From the NCBI RefSeq assembly GCF_022539665.2, contig NC_081337.1, positions 7,540,679 through 7,604,678 on the forward strand: DNA of 64,000 bases, in the 5' to 3' direction. Made by a program: the position numbers and the translations under genes. Positions 1-48,030 of the stretch are shown here, piece after piece. Below the pieces are notes generated by a model, which was not told where the DNA came from, ran no database searches, and worked only from the letters and a program-made list of their open reading frames with translations. The stretch's first letter is position 1, and each line of letters opens with the position of its first letter. Source of the DNA: Daphnia carinata (taxonomy: Eukaryota > Arthropoda > Branchiopoda > Diplostraca > Daphniidae).

Positions 1-1847
1 GGAGCCAAGCTTTGCACCACAAAAAAATGGTAAATCTTAGTTTTTACTGTAGTCTTCAGATATAGGTTTAAGGTCAAAATATCATGGCAACAGGATGATT
101 TGGAACAGGATAACCATTCACCACTTATTCTGTTGTTCTCTGCTGTTAGGTACAAAAATGAGCAAATTTCATTACTTGTTGGTTGCATAGCTGAACTAAG
201 TCCTGAGGAAGAAGCACAACTTTTACATCCTGGAAAGAATGACTTTTCAGTTATGTATAGTTGTAGGAAAAACTGTGCTCAGCTTTGGCTTGGACCAGCA
301 GCTTTCATTAATCATGACTGTCGATCTAACTGCAAGGTTTGAAGCGTGAATCCGTTAACCTTATTATTACAGCGTTCAATTATCATGTTTCCTCGACATA
401 GTTTGTTGCTACTGGTCGCGGAACTGCCTGCGTTCGAATTTTAAGAGACATCGAAGCTGGCGAAGAAATAACATGTTTTTATGGTGAAGATTTCTTTGGC
501 GACAACAATTGCTTTTGCGAGTGTGAAACTTGCGAAAGACGTGGCACAGGTGCATTTGCAAAAAATAAGAAAAGCAGTCCCGAAGCGACCGCAAAGGAAG
601 AACGATACCGCCTCCGTGAAACACATTTGCGACTGAGTCGCGTGAAAAAGCAGACAGACAAAGAACCGATTGTATCGCTAACGGGACGCTCTTCTCGAAA
701 TCCACCCACCCCGGTGCCAATAGAGGACAGAGAAACTGTTCCAAGAGCGTTAGACGTCAAAGAGCTAAGACGTAAAGGGCTCACTAGGTACAATCTACTT
801 TTAATCTCATCGTAAGCGTTCTTTATACGTTTTTTTATTTCAAATATTCTTTGGTCCGTTAGGTATGATGCCGAGTTACTGGTTGCTCAAGGTTACGCCA
901 TATGTAATGAGAGTAAAACTAATAGTGAAGAAAATAGTGGTAATAGTGGGAGTGTAAATCACCACCAGGGCGCGAAAGTAGTTCCTGCCACTTCGCGTGT
1001 ACGTGCCAAACGCCGCCGCCGATCACAAACTACAAAGGAAGTGAATGGAACAAATACAGCAACTACTACACATAAGAATGTTGCTAATCATAGCGTTGGG
1101 CATAAAAAACAAAGCGCTGGAGCAGTAAGAAGCTTACGTTCTCGCACGGTCCGCGGTGTCGAGAGTGACGTGGTCCAAAATACCGCCTTGGAAGGTTCTC
1201 AACCTGAGAATAATGATATAAAACAATCTGGAATGCGTTTACGAAACAAAAAAACGCTTGAAACGACAGCACCGACGGGAACACCTGCTGTAGCCTACCC
1301 CGTTGCCACGACGGAGACCGAGTGCGTCAGTCACGAGAGTGATGTTTACGAGTTCACCGATTTTGAAAACGAAAATGGACTTCAACGAGAAAGCCCAGCA
1401 GTGTCCGAGAAAGAATCTACCACAGAGGAGAGGAAATCTCGATCAGCTACTCCTCCTCCGCCATCTTCGCGTGAACATGCAGCTCACCAACCAGCGTTGG
1501 TGACATCACCAGGTGGACGTCTTAAGCTGACACTTCGGATGAAACGCAGTCCTGTCCTAGACGAAGTCATTGAATCCGGTAGCAGTATGGGTGGTAGCCA
1601 CCAACAAAATATGATACCCGTTTACGAGGTCCTTCGTGTTGAAGGACTAGAAATGGATGGGGAAAGCGAACAGGAACAAACCCATAAAAGCCGGGTACGT
1701 CGAAACCAAAGACGTAGGTCGCCATCTTTAATCCCCAATTCATCCCGAATGGGAGTGTTGCCGACCACCAAACGATTGCGACTGATATTTGGCAATGAAT
1801 CGCACACTATCGATCTACCTCCCACAAACTTTTCCTCAGTTGAGTGA
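1..1847 (+). CDS. Suv4-20: Histone-lysine N-methyltransferase Suv4-20 (KMT5B/C family), 5'-truncated by window edge
   Basis: Deposits H4K20 di- and trimethylation in the nucleus. Four exons read in one frame (1-29, 150-336, 402-787, 863-1847; 528 residues visible); the N-terminus lies outside the window. The first exon ends inside the codon for W of TTKKW and the next continues [16 protein letters not shown], as in the family. SET features are present: FSVMYS, the NHDC motif in [30 protein letters not shown], and the following zinc-binding CxCxxC (CECETC). About 390 C-terminal residues are low-complexity, basic and Ser/Pro-rich, as is usual in this family, and end in TGA at 1845-1847. Introns are 65-120 bp. 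The identification is from family motifs seen directly. Confidence 0.95.
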
Positions 1848-36861: not shown

Positions 36862-39800
36862 ATGGAAGATGACCATTTCCTCGCAGTGATACTTAGCAAC
36901 CTATTCCGGAAGGAATCTAACGGTGATGCAATCGAATTCTTTCTTCGGCGGAGAAGGTTAAGTCCCAATCAAAACAACGGAGAATTGGACAACAAGCTAA
37001 AAAAGTTAAAACAACAGATTGAGGTTTGGAATTCTATTCTAATCTTGTTTTTAGTTTCTTAACTGGATAAGCTTTTGCAACATAGAATTGTGGAGGATGT
37101 TTTGGGGAAGAGCCTAGAGGTTGTCACTCAATAGAACTTGTTTTTCCTGAACAAATTGACAACATTGATGAAGTTGATTCAGACATATTCAAAGCTGAAT
37201 ACATAGATGAATGCATCAAGTGTGGTGAGCTCCTTGATCTGGAAGATTTCAGGTAAATCCAATACTGTAGAACATTGCATCTGAACGTAACACTAGGTGT
37301 TGTAGGCTTGGCAAATCTCCATATAGTTCCATAAACATAAACAGGATTATGAAAGGTCATGAATCTTGGGATTCTGTGTCAAGAACTAGGTAAGATTTAA
37401 TTATTATATAATTGATCCAAAATAATTTATTCTGAAAAGACATACTTGTGAAGTCCTGCAAAAGGTAGAAAATTACCAGACTTTGGGCCCCTGTTACAAA
37501 GATCACCTGAATCACAGAAAAACTGTGTTCCTGTTAAAAAGTCTGTAGAAATTAGTTTTGATATTTAGTAATGTACGATGATCTAAGAATTTCTTTGTTA
37601 TAGAAGTCGCCGTGTAGAATATTCTATTGAAGAAGATTTGGCTATTTTAAAATTTTTGCTGGCAAACAACTTGCATGATAAAGTACGAGGAAACACTATA
37701 TGGAAAATAGTTCACAGAGTAAGTTCAGGAACTTAATAGACAATATTGATATAACAGTGTTGAGATGAATTGCTTCCTCTTTCAATTCTTTTGCAGAACT
37801 TTCCAAACCACAGCTATCATTCTTTGCATAACCGATTCCGACGTTTTATTCTCCCCAACCTCAGCAAATACAAGGGCCTGACGAATAGTGAACGTAAACT
37901 ATTCAGCCACAATGTCTCCTCTGATAGTTCTACATTTTTGCCAAAAAAAACCATTCAGGTAATACTCCATGTGATAGCTTTCCATTCCTATTAAATTTAT
38001 TTTCGAAAATTTCAGACCGACAATCGGAGTTCCATAAATAACAAGACGTTGACGACTGAAAGTGCAATAACAGTAGTTGATCAAGAAACGGTTCTTGCCC
38101 CTATTTGTGTGCTGGAAGAAGTTTCTGAAAGGAATCCAAAAAAGGCGATAAAAAGTAACGCAGATAGCGGCTTAAAAAAGGAAGTGTCATCGAATAAAGT
38201 AAACAACAACAAAAAAATAAAATAAATTTTTTAAGATTTTTCTGTAACTACATCCATCTAAACTGTTTCATGTTTATCTATCACTTTTCAGCTGGGAAAA
38301 ACCTTACTCCTTCGTGGGTTCGATGATTCCGATATAGAAGAAAGCATGACTTTGACCCCCAATACCCTGGAAGTGGTACTTAGCAATTTGTTTCGGAAGG
38401 AGTCAAATGGTGACGCAATTGAGTTTTACATGCAACGTAATCGCTTTTGTCATTTGGAAAACAGCGTTGAACTGGAAGAGAAGTACGGAAAGTTAAAAGA
38501 ACAAATCGAGGTATTTGGAAAAGCTTTTCCTGTTTTCCCATTTTAGCCTATTATGTTATACTGGATACCTCTTTATGTAAAGATATGTTTAAATAGAAAT
38601 GTGGAGGATTTCTTGGAGAAACACCTACAAGTTGCCATGCCATAGAACTAGTGTTTCCTGAAGTGGTTGATGACACCACAGAAATTGAATCAGACGTATT
38701 TAAAGCGGAATATGTGGAAGCGTGTCTTAAGTGTGGCGATCTTCGTAATTTAGAAGACTTCCGGTAATTTTTTATTTCGGCACATAAAAATGCTGAGTAC
38801 ATTGAAATAACTAGTGGTTTTTCACACCGTTTTTATCTAGACTGGGCACATCACCCTATGATGGCTCGATCAACATCAACAGTATAATGAAAGGACATGA
38901 TTCGTGGGATTCTGTAATAAGAAAGGATCTTCGAAAAGGCAGAAAGTTGCCAAATTTGGAATCTTCTTCTGAATCAATTAAGAGCATCTGTTCAGGCAAA
39001 AAGTTTGTTGCAATAGTATTTATTATTGATCCTGTGCTTATAAGCTCCGACACATTTATTTGTTATGTTTATTATTTTCTTTTTTTCCAGGAGACGACGT
39101 AACGAATATTCGGTAGAAGAAGATTTAGCTATTTTAAAATTCCTGATGTTAAAAAATTTGCACGATAAAGTAGAAGGGAACAGTATTTGGAAAATAGTTC
39201 ATAATGTAGGTTTTGCAAAATGGAAAGAGAAAAAATTCCTTGTATGTAAAAATGTTGTATTTATTTTTGTATCTTTTTAGGAGTTTCCGTTGCACTCTTC
39301 TCAGTCTTTACGAAATCGATTTCGACGGCATATTCTTCCCAACCTCCATAGTTACAAAGATTTGACGAATACTGAGCGCAACCTTTTCAGTCGTGGTTCA
39401 TCCAGTGATGACTCTTGCACTTCTCTATCGGGGAAAACGCAGAAGGTGACGAGGAAAAAGTGGCGTATTTTTTAGATAATCATTGTTCTAAAGTTTTATC
39501 GAAAATCAGTCAGATACATCCGCTACTTCACACAAAGAAAATCAAAATGACGTCGTGGCGGTAAGGAATATTTCGTGTTCAGAAAAGAATCCAAACGATC
39601 TTGTAATACTTGTACTTTGTTTTTATTTCTTCAACTTCTTACTGGATACGTCTACGTTCAATGCCATTAATATAATTCCCGATGTCATTAACTAGGTGTC
39701 GACTCCTGCAGATTTTGCATTCCCAAAGACTGTAGTACACGAAAGCGGTCTTTCTTCCAACGTCATGGAAAATTGTAATTCTGTCACATCAGCCGTGTCT

Positions 39801-42152
39801 TTAACAAATGGGAGAAAAACAAAAGAAAAGGAAGTTGGGTAAGCTGATAAAGAATAGCAAATTATCTTGATTCCATATTTTCCTTGATTCGATTGCTATT
39901 TTCCTTAACAAAAAGCTTTCACTTCCCAGGGAATTCACTGTTGAAACAGACAAATGCGTTCTTGAATACATCATCAGGCACAAGCGATATACGGAAGTGT
40001 CGGAAATGAAGCTGTGGAAGGACATACAAAAAAGCATTTTCAAACGTAAGTTGTTATAATAAATAGTAAGCTTTCATTAGTTTTGATTTATTAATCATTT
40101 GTAATCCGCAGAACGAGACTGGAAAGCTATTAAACAAAGGTTTCATGATGTTATTGTTAAAGATCTTGAATCTGAAGAGTATTCCCTCGACGAAAATGTT
40201 ATTCAGAAATTTCGTGCGAAAAATTTGTCCTCGTCAAGTGAACAGAATAACAGTTCCGACGAAGATGATTCGTCTCCACCATCTCATCCGAAAGCACGAA
40301 AAGCTGCGTACGACTACGTGTCCTTCAACTGCAATAAAAGCATAACTAATAATTCAGTTCTTTTTTTTTTTAGGCCAAGACCATACACGTTTAAAGAAGA
40401 TAAGCTCATTATTGACTACATCGTCAAATCTGAAAGATTTGAAGAAATACGGGGAAAACGTCTCTGGGTAGACATTCAGGATAAGGTTTTGCATGGTAGG
40501 GTATTTGAATGATGTATTTTTCGAGGAATTTATTTTTAAAAAATTTCTCATCCATTAGGATACAATCGTACGTGGGAGTCTGCTAAGAACCGTTTTCTTC
40601 GAACTTTATTTAAAAATCTTACGCTGTACCGGCTTAATCCAGAGATTATTTCCAAATTTGAATGTGGAGCTGTTGCTGAAAGTGAATTCGAGTACTTATA
40701 GTAGCATAATTACTGTGCCTGTTTAACGCGGTTGCTTGTCTTTCAGGACATTTAGGTGGAGTCAACGATAGAAGAAGTTCCAGACATATCTCCACCAAAA
40801 TTAGTAACATCGTTGAATAAGTTGTTAAACTGCAGAAGTAGTTCTTATATTCGTTTCATTTTGCTCTTTAGAAAACAGTAGGAAAACCGAAGACTCGGAC
40901 GAAGACGTGCTTCCTAAGCATCCAGCCTTAGGGACGGAAAAAATAGCAACGCCGGTAATTGATGTAGTCGCACCTTATGTTTGAATAGATGAAATATTTA
41001 AAAGAATTTTTGCAGTCCAAGAAGTCCAAACGGCACCTGTTTCGACAGCCTATCATTCCAATACCGGTCATTTTTTCTCCCCAACCGGGCCCTTCTCTAC
41101 CTAAGAAAAAAGTATAATACCACATCTAAAACTAATATATGCCTGCTCATGATACATTAATCCGCAGTATTTTGCGTTAACCGGTTACGGTGAAACACAC
41201 GCATAACTATTGTTAGTTCACCGTCAAACTGGACAGAAATTTGGTCTAACCCTTTAGCGGTTGAAACCTTTCATTTTTGCTTAACACATTGTTGATAATT
41301 TGAAATCCAGCTATAAATTTCATATTTTATAATTAGGGTGGCTCGACGAGAGTGAATACTCCTGCAGAACTGGAACCGCCAGCAGCTGCGCCAGAAGCTG
41401 CTGAACAGTTGTCGAAGTCGCCGGAAGTTTTACACACCGTAACCACATTACCGATGGGAGGACTGACGAAAACTGCTGGTGCCACATCGACTGAATCTAC
41501 TGTAAGCGCTACGTCGTTCAAAAGCCAGACTTTACCGAAAAAGTTGCAACCAGCGCCTTCTTTAAGATGTTCAGTTGTCTTAAAAAAACTGAGACAGACC
41601 GAACTAGAGAAGTATGGTTGTAAAGCCGTCTCACAACAGAAAATGTTTAACTACTCTACTAGCGCTGGCCCCTCCGTTCATCCCCCTCCTACTACGCCTC
41701 CACCTGTAAGCCCCTTGAAAGCTTCACGTTTTACAGTCGAGATATCCTCGGACCTATTAGCGGCCAGATTATCGGCTGCTGGATCCTCTGTGTTGGCAGT
41801 GGCACAAGCTAACCAAGAATCAGGTTGGCTGCCATTGTCCTCATTATCTGGAGAACCCATTCAACATAGCGAACCGTTGAAGAGTTCTCATGATACCTCG
41901 GCTTGCACCACCTCTCACGAACTTTTGGACAAATTTCAACTGTGTTCGTCCGTGACAATAGTATCGTCGAACGTTGAAAGTTGTTCGGTGGACGATGAAG
42001 AGCATGTTGAAGCAGAAGTTCCTGATCAAGTGAGTTTTTCTGCATTATTAAAAGTAAGCAATCCAACACAAACAAGAGTTTCTACTCATAGTTATTTGGA
42101 ATTAACGAAGGATGGCCTGTCGAGTGATGGCTACCGTACGCCAGAAGGTTAA
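36862..42152 (+). CDS. RAP1 (TERF2IP)-like protein with duplicated BRCT-Myb units and four Myb modules
   Basis: RAP1 is a telomere-bound shelterin subunit with an N-terminal BRCT and a RAP1-type Myb. I model 22 exons: 36862-37023, 37086-37252, 37306-37389, 37469-37540, 37604-37718, 37797-37958, 38016-38198, 38292-38510, 38597-38763, 38841-39002, 39091-39205, 39281-39445, 39510-39602, 39696-39838, 39930-40045, 40112-40307, 40374-40495, 40559-40681, 40756-40803, 40872-40954, 41016-41111, 41337-42152; 1202 residues. BRCT-like unit 1 is about residues 1-115 (LFRKESNGDAIEFFL, DIFKAEYIDECIKCG, LEDFRLG); Myb 1 about 163-222 (YSIEEDLAILKFLLANNL, TIWKIVH, SLHNRFRRFILPNL). The unit repeats at about 333-560. 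Mybs 3 and 4 lie at about 670-730 and 774-835. The last intron is optional: read through, the protein ends PKKKV at 41117. Confidence 0.72.
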
Positions 42153-43030: not shown

Positions 43031-43234
43031 TTATGGCAATCCGTTTTACACAAAAAAAAAAAAATTTCGCCAAAAAAAAAAAATCACACTTTTTTCTTTT
43101 TTTCCGACACGTAGCCATCTACCGCTCAGACTCGTTATTACTGGCGTAGGCAATTTCAGTCCATTAGATGCCATTCGCAGTTAGTTCAGGAACTTGGATG
43201 GAGAATAACGCGTGGGTGGAGGAACAATTGAAAA

Positions 43235-43977
43235 ATGGATAAGATAATACAACAAAAGGATGGTAAGTATAAACATTATTATATTGGTTTTCAATTATTA
43301 ACTATTGTTTATTAGATCAAATTATGAAGCTGCAGGCCCAATTATTGGAACAACACAAAATATTAGATAACAGCAAAGCTAAGGATGGTAAGGCCTAATA
43401 CGTAATGATTCTATTTATTTGCTTTTATTCATTTGTGTTTTGTAGCTCAAATTTTGAGTCTACAAGCTCAGCTAGGGGAAAAGAACAAATTGGAATGGAA
43501 CAGTTTCCAAACAGTGAAGGAGGTTTTTCAAAACTCATCCCTAACTGAACATGAGGATGAATTGGCATTAGGTGAACACAGTCAGGTACCTAAACTTTTC
43601 AAATAAGAATTCAAAATAAGTATAGAATTTTAACAAACAATTATTTATTGTTTAGTTATTCAGTCTACCACCTGACAGTGTGTTAAAGTTAAATTCTGTT
43701 AGTGCTGCACTAAAAGAATTGTTAGTAATAAGCCCATGCAGTGAAGGAACTGAACAATTGTGGGACCGTATTTGGGCCGAAAATGGGTGTGGTACAGAAA
43801 CCCAGAAATGGCACAAGTTCAACATGAAACATGGATTAGGTACTTTTCGGTTTTTTGTCTATCGAAAAAGTATTTTTAATGCTATTATTTTGCATTCACA
43901 GAATTTTAGCAGGGGATCAAGTCAACTCTGGAAGTGTTACAGGATGGAAGAGTGAGCCTACAGTTGAAAAACACTGA
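43235..43977 (+). pseudogene. Unknown small coiled-coil-like gene, left copy (probably frame-damaged)
   Basis: Exons 43235-43262, 43316-43387, 43446-43585, 43656-43839 and 43910-43977 give a 163-residue frame. It starts MDKIIQQKDDQIMKLQAQL, with two similar short exons (QIMKLQAQLLEQ, QILSLQAQLGEK) that look like a duplicated heptad exon. The conserved core is EGTEQLWDRIWAENGCGTETQKW. Near the 3' end this copy has five A's where the right copy has six, so it stops early at TGA 43975-43977. An intact-looking later exon (EASNNSASLAKEQLVLYIQSV, about 44098-44200) is then out of frame. No family recognised. Confidence 0.5.
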
Positions 43978-44974
43978 AAGTGCATTACCATTAAGGTATG
44001 AGGTAAAGTAATAGAGTATGCAAATTGTCTAATGAGAAGTACCATCTTGTGTGAATGAATCCTGTGTAACAGCAATCCTTTATAGTTCTGTTATAGCTAG
44101 AAGCCTCAAATAATTCTGCTTCTCTTGCTAAAGAACAACTTGTCCTTTACATTCAGAGTGTTGGTGAAGCTGGGTACTTAAATGGCCCTAAAGATGTTTC
44201 ATTTCGTTGGCATTGCAGCGATGAACATCATACATGGACTCTTTAGGTATGAAAGGAATTTTCTTGAAAAATTTTTGAATTTATGATGAAGCTTTTCTCC
44301 TCCTTTTTGCCAACCATGTCTAATCTAAAAAAAAATTTTATCCAATAGGAAAGGATTTTCATGTACTGGGAAAACAACTATCAACAATGCAACATTCTAC
44401 AGGTGCTAGTTTATCATTCAAGAGCCTTATACAATGATTTTCATCTGCAATTTGTATGTCCTTTCCCAAGCTTCCACCAGAAGTTGAATCTATGAGTCAT
44501 GTAAGTTCCATGATCAACAATTGATGTGTTTAACGGTGTTGTTTTTCTTTTCTCAGTGTAGGTTAATAGTAACATTGGATCTGAAAAAATTCTTGGTTGG
44601 GGCCTGACACTGAATAAATTGTAATGATTGGATGGATGACATGATATTTCTATACTTCATTCGGATTCCCGAGACGGTATTTGATATTTAAAAAATTGAA
44701 GTGCATATCTGGGCTCCCTTCCTTTCCGTAGCCCCGTTTCCCCTTGACTCGTAATAAGCCCGTAGGGGGTCATGCCCCTACTGTACGGTATATATAAAAA
44801 TAACATATACCGAGGTTTGGAGGGCTCTGGCCGGAAAGGGGACGTGGGGGTCCGCTTAGTCCGATGATGTGTTCACGGAGGGCGACGTGGCTATCCACAA
44901 ATCCGAACTAAAGGTTAATCGCTCCAGTAAAAATGTTCCATATCTTCGACTCTTCTTCCGGCTTCTCTTAGCCA

Positions 44975-45034
44975 ATCACCGGGTAATCTCCCCGGTGGGT
45001 CAACAAGGCAGTGTCTCCCCCTGCCTGGGTTGAC
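44975..45034 (+). other. Tandem hairpins in the left arm
   Basis: CACCGGG...CCCGGTG (about 44977-44998) is followed directly by GTCAAC..AGGCAG/CTGCCT..GTTGAC (44999-45034). Both stems are preserved in the right arm (46017-46052 and onward). Could be a structured RNA or a transposon end. Confidence 0.4.
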
Positions 45035-45353
45035 GGCAACTTTTGAAAGGGCTATTGTGCCTTTTTAAAGTTGCAAAAATAATTGTAATGTGCAGAGATT
45101 GTATAAATATATTTTTTGCAAAATTCGTTTCTTTCATTGTCTGTATTCGCTGTGTTCACACGTTACACTTTTTATATTTAGCTTGCTTAATTCACCTTTA
45201 TTGTTTTTGTCACCTTTGATGGTAAGCATTGTTTCCATTGGTTTATCGTTTATCTGTAAGTATTATTTATTACAATCTTTGAATTGTTCAACTTAGATTC
45301 AAGGAACAATCTGGATATTTTATGAAGTAATTTTGTATTTTGTTTTACTCGTA

Positions 45354-45420
45354 TGGGAACCGATCCCCAGACATTTAGCGTGCAACGCCGATGCTCTAAC
45401 ATTGAGCCACGAGATGTATT
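45354..45420 (-). repeat. tRNA-like element in the spacer, minus strand
   Basis: On the minus strand: CGTGGCTCAATGTTAGAGCATCGGCG, then GGGGATCGGTTCCC. It mirrors the element at 45701-45766, so the spacer has its own inverted pair. Confidence 0.5.
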
Positions 45421-45700
45421 TAAATTTTTTATTATCGCATATCATATGTTATCGTCTAGGATGTTTATGCAGTCTTTCACAACTATATGTTTATCTTTCT
45501 ATTGCTTCCATAAGGTTCTTAGCTCTGTGGAAGAGCTTTTATCTGCGATACCTGTTACCCTGGGTTCAAACCTCAGTAGATGTGTAAAAATGAAGTAGAA
45601 TATTGTACAAGAGTATATTGCAGAATTGCATTTCAGTTTTATTCTAAGTGTAAATGCAAGTCCACAAGTGACTAGAAAAAAAAGCCAAACTAAAATCATA

Positions 45701-45766
45701 TGATTCGTGGCTCATTGGTAGAGCATCGGCGAGATATGCCGAACATCCAGGGTTCGATCCCTGGAT
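45701..45766 (+). repeat. tRNA-like element in the spacer, plus strand
   Basis: Good D-arm sequence (TGGCTCATTGGTAGAGCA), a perfect five-pair stem TCGGC/GCCGA with a 7-nt loop, and a T arm CCAGG-GTTCGATC-CCTGG. The flanks do not pair as an acceptor stem and the base before the anticodon is A, not T. I call it a tRNA-derived repeat, not a working tRNA gene. Confidence 0.55.
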
Positions 45767-45780
45767 AATAATAGAATGCT

Positions 45781-48030
45781 TACAGATAAACGATAAACCA
45801 ATACCCGTCACCTTACCATCAAATGTGACAAAAACAAATATAGCAAAGCCAAAAAAAAAATTGATTAATGTAATGTGTGAACAAGCTAACACAGACAATG
45901 AAAGAAACGAATTTTGCAAAAAATATTTTATAAAAAAAATTTTATTGACAATTCTCTGCACATTACAATTATTTTTGCAACTTTAAAAAGGCACAATAGC
46001 CCTTTCAAAAGTTGCCGTCAACCCAGGCAGGGGGAGACACTGCCTTGTTGACCCACCGGGGAGATTACCCGGTGATTGGCTAAGAGAAGCCGGAAGAAGA
46101 GCTGAAGATTTGGAACATTTTTACAGGAGCGATTAACCTTTAGTTCGGATTTGTGGGCAGCCACATCACCCTCCGTGAACACATCATCGGACGAAGCGGC
46201 ACCCCACGTCCCCTTTCCGGCCAGAGCCCTCCAAACCTCGGTATATGTTGTTTTTATATATACCGTACAGTAGGGGCATGACCCCCTACGGGCTTATTAT
46301 GAGTCAAGGGGAAACGGGGCTTCAGAAAAGAAGGGAGCCCAGATATGCACTTCAATTTTTTAAATATCAAATACCGTCTGGGGAATCCGAATTAAGTATA
46401 GCAATGTCATGTCATCCATCCAATCAATACAATTTATTCAGTGTCTTGCCCCAACCAAGAATCTTTTCAGATCCAATGTTACTATTAACCTATATTGAGA
46501 AAAGAAAAACAACACCGTTAAACACATCAATTGTTGATCATGGAACTTACATGACTCATAGATTCAACTTCTGGTGGAAGCTTGGGAAAGGACATACAAA
46601 TTGCAGATTAACTTCATTGTATAAGGCTCTTGAATGATAAACTAGCACCTGTAGAATGTTGCATTGTTGATAGTTGTTTTCCCAGTACATGAAAATCCTT
46701 TCCTATTGGATAAAATTTTTTTTGGTAGATAAGACCTGGTTGGCAAAAAGGAGGAGAAATTCTTCGTCATAAATTCAAAATTATTTGAAGAAAAATCCTT
46801 TCATACCTAAAGAGTCCATGTATGATGTTCATCTCTGCAATAGCAGCAAAATTAAAACATCTTTAGGGCCATTTAAATACCCAGTTTCCCCAACACTCTG
46901 AACATAAAGGACAAGTTGTTCTTTAGACAGAGAAGCAGAATTATTTGAGGCTTCTAGCTGTGACAGAACTATAAAGGATTGCTGTTGTACTGGATTCATT
47001 AACACAAGATGGTACTTCTCATTAGGCAATTTGCATTACTCTATTAATTTACCTCACACCTTACGGTAATGCACTCTCAGTGTTTTTTCATCTGTAGGCT
47101 CACTCTTCCATCCTGTAACACTTCCAGACTTGATTTGATCCCCCGTTAAAATCTGTGAATGCAAAATAATAGCATTAAAAATACTTTTTCGATAGACAAA
47201 AAACCGAAAAGTACCTAATCCATGTTTCATGTTGAACTTGTGCCATTTCTGGGTTTCTGTACCACACCCATTTTCGGCCCAAATACGTTCCCACAATTGT
47301 TCAGTTCCTTCACTGCATGAGGTTATTACTAACGATTCTTTTAGGGCAGCACTAACAGAATTTAAATTTAACACACTGTCATGTGGTGGACTGAATAACT
47401 AAGCAATAAATAATTGTTTGTTAAAATTCTATACTTATTTTGAATTCTTATTTGAAAACTTTAGGTACCTGGCTGTGTTCACCTAATGCCAACTCATCCT
47501 CACGTTCAGTTAGAGATGAGTTTTGAAAAACCTCCTTCACTGTTTGGAAACTGTTCCGTTCCAATTTGTTCTTTTCCCCTAGCTGAGCTTGAAGACTCAA
47601 AATTTGAGCTACAAAACACGAATGAATAAAAGCAAATAAATAGAATCATTACGTGTTAGGCCTACGATCCTTAGCTTTGTTATCTAATATTTTGTGTTGT
47701 TCCAATAACTGGGCCTGCAGCTTCATAATTTGATCTAATAAACAATAATTAATAATTGAAAACCAATATAATAATGTTTATACTTACCATTTTTTTGTTT
47801 TATTATCTTATCCATTTTTCAATTGTTCCTCCAGCCACGCGTTGTTCTCCAGCCACGCTACTCAATTAACTGCTAATGGGATACAATTAACTCAAATTGC
47901 TTACATGCCTGTAATAACGAAACCGACTGATAGATGGCTACGGGTAGAAAAAAGAGAAAAAAGTGCGATTTTTTTTTTTTTTTTTTCCGCCATTTTTTTT
48001 TTTTTTTTTTATGTAAAACGGATTGCCATA
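45781..48030 (-). repeat. Right arm of the large imperfect inverted duplication
   Basis: Inverted counterpart of 43032-45259 (see that entry). The outer end has longer T tracts (about 47971-48010) than the matching A tracts on the left. Confidence 0.85.
47054..47815 (-). pseudogene. Unknown small gene, right copy
   Basis: Minus-strand counterpart of 43235-43977, starting MDKIIKQK at 47815. The core is nearly the same (EGTEQLWERIWAENGCGTETQKW), and the 3' frame is longer (SGSVTGWKSEPTDEKTLRVHYRK) because the A tract keeps six bases. Here the acceptor before that exon is TTTTAA where the left copy has TTTTAG, so its last junction does not splice in frame. Each copy therefore seems to have a different lesion. 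Confidence 0.45.

Follow-up and report, generated by a model that had tools for sequence, protein, structure and literature searches.

A RAP1-family protein of Daphnia carinata with a doubled BRCT-Myb unit and four Myb modules

A stretch of 64,000 nucleotides from Daphnia carinata (NCBI RefSeq assembly GCF_022539665.2, contig NC_081337.1, positions 7,540,679 to 7,604,678; hereafter, the window) harbors the gene LOC130688185, whose placement in the RAP1 family has strong support from sequence comparison. In the encoded protein, a block composed of a BRCT domain, a linker and a RAP1-type Myb domain occurs twice in tandem, and is followed by two further Myb modules and a long Ser/Pro-rich tail in which the RAP1 C-terminal (RCT) domain was not recognized. 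The explanation that we prefer, and that we hold to be somewhat probable, is a RAP1-family protein that sits directly on TTAGG DNA without the RCT-TRF2 tether, in which the doubled layout may let the protein hold chromosome-end DNA by itself.

The annotated protein (isoform X2, "uncharacterized", 1209 residues; P0001) maps letter for letter into the window. Its coding region comprises 22 exons on the + strand, from the first ATG at 36862 to a last codon ending at 42149, with a TAA stop codon at 42150-42152, and all 21 introns are of the GT..AG type, in a mapping whose script permitted GT/GC..AG introns only. The protein matched the D. carinata assembly at one locus, where 19 of 19 exon matches were found. 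An earlier note on this DNA had outlined the interval 36862..42152, had run one splice chain through both BRCT-Myb units and had placed the second BRCT at residues 333-455. The outer coordinates proved exact, the intron joining the units (38199-38291) is part of the annotated model, and the residue numbers agree with the annotated protein, in which this BRCT ends near residue 455. The public gene models of four species (D. carinata, D. sinensis, D. magna and D. pulex) indicate that both units are carried by one mRNA, and the possibility of two separate genes was rejected because a single continuous protein is annotated in all four and maps exactly here.

The kinship with RAP1 and the arthropod origin, which the earlier note had proposed, were both supported by profile searches. 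The protein matched the Pfam family Myb_Rap1 (PF08914) with 105.4 bits in four stretches, as expected from the four Myb modules counted in that note, and BRCT_2 with 55.3 bits in two stretches, and the proteins of D. sinensis, D. magna and D. pulex each presented the same four Myb_Rap1 and two BRCT_2 stretches. When scored alone against the curated cut-offs (27.1 bits for Myb_Rap1 and 27.3 for BRCT_2), Myb1, Myb2, Myb4 and BRCT copy 1 passed, and Myb3 and BRCT copy 2 did not (Table 1). Across the four species, 8/8 units matched both Myb_Rap1 and BRCT_2 at E <= 0.01. The yeast-type family Rap1-DNA-bind (PF09197) also passed its cut-off of 22.4 bits in the D. carinata protein, with 23.0 bits.

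A profile of the eight units was run against 177,635 distinct solved-chain sequences and gave seven matches at E <= 1, the first of which was human RAP1 (TERF2IP; 8rd4_D, E 2.7e-6), whose alignment drew its bits mostly from the Myb (19.2). Human RAP1 was also matched in 1fex_A (E 0.00065) and yeast Rap1 in 6ldm (E 0.52), and the remaining matches, at E 0.32 or weaker, were unrelated or generic. A generic Myb factor was rejected because Myb_Rap1 scored higher than Myb_DNA-bind_6 (26.3 bits) and Myb_DNA-binding (21.2 bits) and because a BRCT precedes a Myb twice. TRF (PF08558) was not among the Pfam matches of the protein, and none of its four Myb recognition helices (given below) reads as the DLKDKW-type telobox of the TRF1/TRF2 family. 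Two features of the RAP1 family, an N-terminal BRCT before the Myb and a Myb of RAP1 type, were both recognized by sequence.

The tandem repeat of an about 240-residue block, described in the earlier note, is borne out: along 237 residues the two units are 62% identical (E 1.6e-104, 290 bits), and shuffling unit 2 500 times never gave more than 25.8 bits. The two units also share their intron organization: introns 8, 9, 10 and 11 of unit 2 match introns 1, 2, 4 and 5 of unit 1, with phases 0, 2, 2 and 0 in both, and introns 6 and 12, directly behind units 1 and 2, are both of phase 0. Exons 2 and 9 have the same length, 167 bases, and exons 5 and 11 measure 115 and 112 bases. Similarity between the introns themselves gave a mixed outcome, with the five corresponding pairs ranked 1, 4, 8, 25 and 57 among 190 pairs. 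Unit 1 holds one extra intron (intron 3). Exon 10 of unit 2 (38841-39002) is devoid of this intron, which divides the matching stretch of unit 1 (37306-37540). The identity between Myb1 and Myb2 is 75% in D. carinata and 72% in D. pulex. A duplicated pair was also considered for Myb3 and Myb4, which have in common a phase-2 intron before each module and a phase-1 intron inside each; this intron pattern alone supports the pairing, and the identity between the two (32% in D. carinata, 38% in D. pulex) does not exceed the value for Myb1 and Myb4 (32% and 42%, respectively).

The age of the duplication was approached by a tree of the eight Daphnia units and one metagenome protein (P0005, described below), which is unrooted and drawn with a midpoint root only. 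One branch splits all unit 1s from all unit 2s (support 88/86; found in 100% of 200 bootstrap trees), and P0005 forms a long branch; in label shuffles, 13 of 500 were as low, near-copies making the labels cluster. Because of this single branch, the duplication would predate the divergence of D. pulex from the other three species, and a duplication or conversion in each species separately was not favoured. The tree therefore favours a tandem duplication of the N-terminal BRCT-Myb block older than the split of the four Daphnia species, within a gene in which the two further Mybs follow. Since unit 2 is without intron 3 and P0005 has a unit-1-like GRKLPDFG linker, the more ancestral of the two copies may be unit 1.

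A protein search with a partial 823-residue gene model as query revealed four proteins at E <= 0.01 among 7989 scored candidates, all of them from Daphnia (carinata, sinensis, magna and pulex), and the doubled layout of D. carinata was found in the other three. The D. magna record bears the name 'Repressor/activator protein 1 homolog'. A profile from unit 2 to Myb4 gave nothing at E <= 10 among 7987 candidates, in a length window that shut out the 1200-residue Daphnia proteins too. With the unit profile, one relative outside the named Daphnia was recovered among 5223 candidates: P0005, a Joint Genome Institute (JGI) metagenome protein of 323 residues with a single BRCT-Myb unit, 51% identical to unit 1, whose BRCT_2 score (24.3 bits) is below the cut-off. 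It differs from the Daphnia proteins in the one unit seen, on a source contig of only 1174 bases. Viral contigs gave no match to the protein. These relative searches need shared words and therefore say little on distant arthropods, so that neither the search among 7987 candidates nor that among 5223 shows absence in other arthropods.

The long tail provided no recognizable RCT, as the earlier note had stated. Up to E 10, Pfam gave no match to RCT (PF11626) in the proteins of the four species, in a search whose filters remove most matches weaker than about 0.1, and residues 863-1209 had no Pfam match at all. A four-species tail profile run against solved structures did not retrieve an RCT either, its best match being the HRDC domain of the Bloom protein (E 0.52). 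Most of the tail is poorly and unevenly conserved; three short motifs, near residues 911-931, 1011-1034 and 1068-1090, are shared by the four species. The RCT thus escaped detection by sequence, which is not proof of its absence, since the fold may have diverged.

How such a protein could read DNA is suggested by the recognition helices of its Mybs. In the register of the solved-chain alignment, Myb1 and Myb2 of D. carinata present HSLHNRFR and QSLRNRFR, to be compared with NSIRHRFR and NAWRDRFR in yeast and QSLKDRYL in human RAP1; the helices of Myb3 and Myb4 read KAIKQRFH and ESAKNRFL, the latter placed by eye. The last helix Arg, which is Leu in the human protein, was found in 4/4 Myb1s and 3/4 Myb2s, and the position of human R133 is Arg in 4/4 Myb1s and 2/4 Myb2s. 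Myb1 has a net charge of +3 to +5, likewise Myb4. Within the DNA-PK complex, R133 of human RAP1 was reported to enter the minor groove (PMC12221994). Rap1 proteins with two Mybs are described as tight direct binders, and those with one Myb as weak binders that depend on an RCT tether to Taz1 or TRF2 (PMC4416457, PMC6510891), and each Myb of yeast Rap1 touches a 5-bp half-site (PMC6510891). The Rap1 of Candida albicans, likened here by description, is missing the RCT, still binds telomeric repeats and counts as a Rap1 nonetheless (PMC6510891, PMC4416457). Because of these multi-Myb precedents, the agreement between 5-bp half-sites and a 5-bp repeat, and the Args kept in the helix and at the R133 position, direct binding of TTAGG by the Mybs is likely. 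Myb1 is likely the best candidate for the DNA reader, to which the other Mybs would add affinity or spacing.

According to the mechanism proposed here, the protein most likely sits directly on double-stranded TTAGG telomere DNA, where several Mybs, at roughly one 5-bp repeat apiece, would supply the affinity missing from the single Myb of vertebrate RAP1, and the RCT-TRF2 tether would therefore not be needed. A multivalent telomere protein, as the earlier note had suggested, is plausible. The BRCT of human RAP1 contacts KU70 by a basic patch (K39, R40 and R55 were mutated) and blocks LIG4, a contact that the authors call broadly conserved across metazoa (PMC12221994). The two Daphnia BRCTs, together with the tail, would dock partners at the chromosome end, possibly Ku, holding off end joining. 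Compared by eye with the human sequence, the patch is presumably kept in part, with two Lys in unit 1 and R55 unmatched. That either BRCT of the Daphnia protein docks Ku is speculation.

The genomic setting is compatible with such a role. The telomere repeat of Daphnia is reported as TTAGG (PMC4427308). In the D. carinata assembly, a (TTAGG)6 30-mer had 4378 forward and 781 reverse matches, compared with none for the backward control, and a TERT RNA-binding domain was matched with 127.2 bits. Ku matches were found on two contigs, and a POT1-type OB-fold match of 35.9 bits (G000:C8:4896377-4899670), which lies in an open frame of 143 codons beside other frames, is a candidate partner at the chromosome end. 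Codon patterns for DLKDKW, the telobox motif of TRF-type Mybs, had no match in the 108 Mb assembly, a blank that an intron or a variant motif could also produce and that would lend modest support to the lack of a typical TRF. Family searches of the genome for TRF and for RCT were likewise empty; these blanks weigh little because the same type of search missed the known Myb_Rap1 gene itself. A (TTAGG)n array was observed mid-contig on a contig of 9.4 Mb (G000:C4:4792000-4801000), starting at about 4,795,789 and continuing, with interruptions, for about 5.2 kb to the end of that segment; it corresponds to either an interstitial array or an assembly join. Three tandem TTAGG repeats, on either strand, were found in 0/12 contig-end stretches of about 4 kb, taken from 6 of the 106 contigs.

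However, several observations weigh against a directly bound RAP1 with two full units. BRCT copy 2 does not reach the Pfam cut-off alone (Table 1), and the BRCT part of the human 8rd4_D alignment contributes 8.7 bits by itself, which is not significant. PF09197 passes in one of the four species, the other three scoring 19.9, 11.2 and 18.7 bits. Concerning DNA reading, Myb2 has a net charge close to zero (0 to +2), it has lost the N-arm Arg in D. magna and D. pulex, and in D. magna its last helix Arg is replaced by Gln; in 4/4 species the helices of Myb3 and Myb4 close with His or Leu instead of Arg. Finally, given what the genome family search missed, TRF and RCT cannot be taken as absent.

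These points leave some room for a RAP1 recruited in the canonical way, a rather unlikely alternative in which a diverged TRF would carry the protein via its tail and the extra Mybs and second BRCT would be docking modules that bind DNA little. Recruitment of this kind is described for the Rap1 of human and fission yeast (PMC4416457), tail motifs are kept in 4/4 species, the genome family searches are insensitive across introns, and Myb3 and Myb4 are without the last helix Arg; yet neither Pfam (up to E 10, in the four proteins) nor the tail profile retrieved an RCT, the genome search and the DLKDKW pattern revealed no TRF, and more than one Myb accompanies the directly binding Rap1s (PMC4416457). 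It is still less probable that the protein is a chromatin or transcription regulator of RAP1 descent, acting at promoter or subtelomeric sites rather than as a telomere cap. Yeast Rap1 and HpRap1A do work at promoters and subtelomeres (PMC6510891), and the long Ser/Pro-rich tail may resemble activation regions, but TTAGG arrays and telomerase occur in the same assembly and no second locus there matched the protein. An artefact of the gene model or assembly, in which two neighbouring genes or a collapsed repeat would have been taken for a single gene, is very improbable: the likeness of the units could confuse assembly and their junction is known from gene models, not RNA reads, but the annotation of each of the four species has both units in a single unbroken protein, the units have diverged to 62% identity and fall on opposite sides of one tree branch, and the joining intron keeps a frame without stop.

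Direct binding to TTAGG DNA remains the preferred explanation. In its furthest form, which is possible but doubtful, RAP1 would be the main double-strand binder of a TRF-less cap, with four Mybs on successive TTAGG repeats and two BRCTs docking two Ku or two ends. If true, metazoans would have a counterpart of yeast Rap1, at odds with the view of arthropods as devoid of shelterin parts. In 2014, a BLAST survey covering aphids, two mites and four further insects reported no shelterin genes, including RAP1, and concluded that they had been lost in arthropods (PMC4296714). A 2015 study of Daphnia telomeres described a POT1 homologue and suggested a search for its partners (PMC4427308).

Among known systems, human RAP1 (8rd4_D, 1fex_A) shares with the Daphnia protein a BRCT followed by a RAP1-type Myb, but carries a single Myb and is tethered to TRF2 by its RCT (PMC12221994, PMC4416457), compared with two BRCTs, four Mybs and no RCT found in Daphnia. 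Saccharomyces cerevisiae Rap1 (6ldm, 1ign) shares more than one Myb per chain and helices of the form ....RFR; it differs in having one BRCT, two Mybs and an RCT (PMC4416457), and its sequence match is weak (E 0.52). Likened by description, TEBP-1 and TEBP-2 of Caenorhabditis are ecdysozoan double-strand telomere binders with an N-terminal region like the RAP1 homeodomains (PMC8113555); in contrast to the Daphnia protein, the word BRCT is absent from the main text of that article.

The earlier note knew of no description of this layout. Indeed, none appeared in the titles and abstract starts of the open-licence matches listed, although a mention elsewhere is possible, and no open-licence paper with both TERF2IP and Daphnia was found; the protein itself, however, is public, and the D. 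magna copy already bears the name of a RAP1 homologue. What sets it apart within the RAP1 family is the doubled BRCT-Myb unit with four Mybs. Which proteins cap the TTAGG telomeres of arthropods is a largely open question, for which a RAP1-family gene conserved in Daphnia, an animal that can be worked with in the laboratory, provides a direct handle. The layout also permits a test of whether the gain of Mybs in one chain and the loss of the RCT form a repeated route from a TRF-carried to a DNA-reading RAP1. The coordinates of the gene and its modules are collected in Table 1.

Table 1. Features of LOC130688185, with positions in the window and residues of the annotated protein
Feature	Residues	Position	Strand	Basis or remark
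Whole coding region, 22 exons, 1209 residues and stop codon		36862..42152	+	Exact spliced mapping; single locus in genome
Unit 1 (BRCT-linker-Myb), exons 1 to part of 6	1-245	36862..37916	+	
Segment NLFRKESNGDAIEFF	13-27			Before BRCT copy 1
BRCT copy 1	39-110	36976..37306	+	Pfam BRCT_2 36.8 bits alone
Exon 4 (SPAKGRKLPDFG linker)		37454..37540	+	Spliced mapping
Myb1, in unit 1	173-228	37620..37865	+	Myb_Rap1 36.7 bits alone
Intron 7, joins unit 1 region to unit 2		38199..38291	+	Phase 0
Unit 2 (BRCT-linker-Myb), exons 8 to part of 12	341-580	38352..39400	+	
BRCT copy 2	about 371-449	38442..38841	+	BRCT_2 24.4 bits alone, below cut-off of 27.3
Myb2, in unit 2	508-562	39107..39346	+	Myb_Rap1 38.6 bits alone
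Myb3	676-724	39934..40146	+	Myb_Rap1 19.3 bits alone, below cut-off of 27.1
Myb4	782-837	40384..40614	+	Myb_Rap1 33.2 bits alone
Ser/Pro-rich tail	863-1209	40755..42149	+	Without RCT match

Two other features of the window were observed outside the gene. Just downstream of it lies a large inverted repeat (43072-47980), with arms of about 2.1 kb around a 778-nt centre; seven arm pieces show 84-96% complementarity, the longest of them being 809 nt at 94%. Farther along, on the - strand, the segment 58269-62328 contains consecutive long open frames whose Cys/His pairs, by eye, resemble C2H2 zinc fingers.

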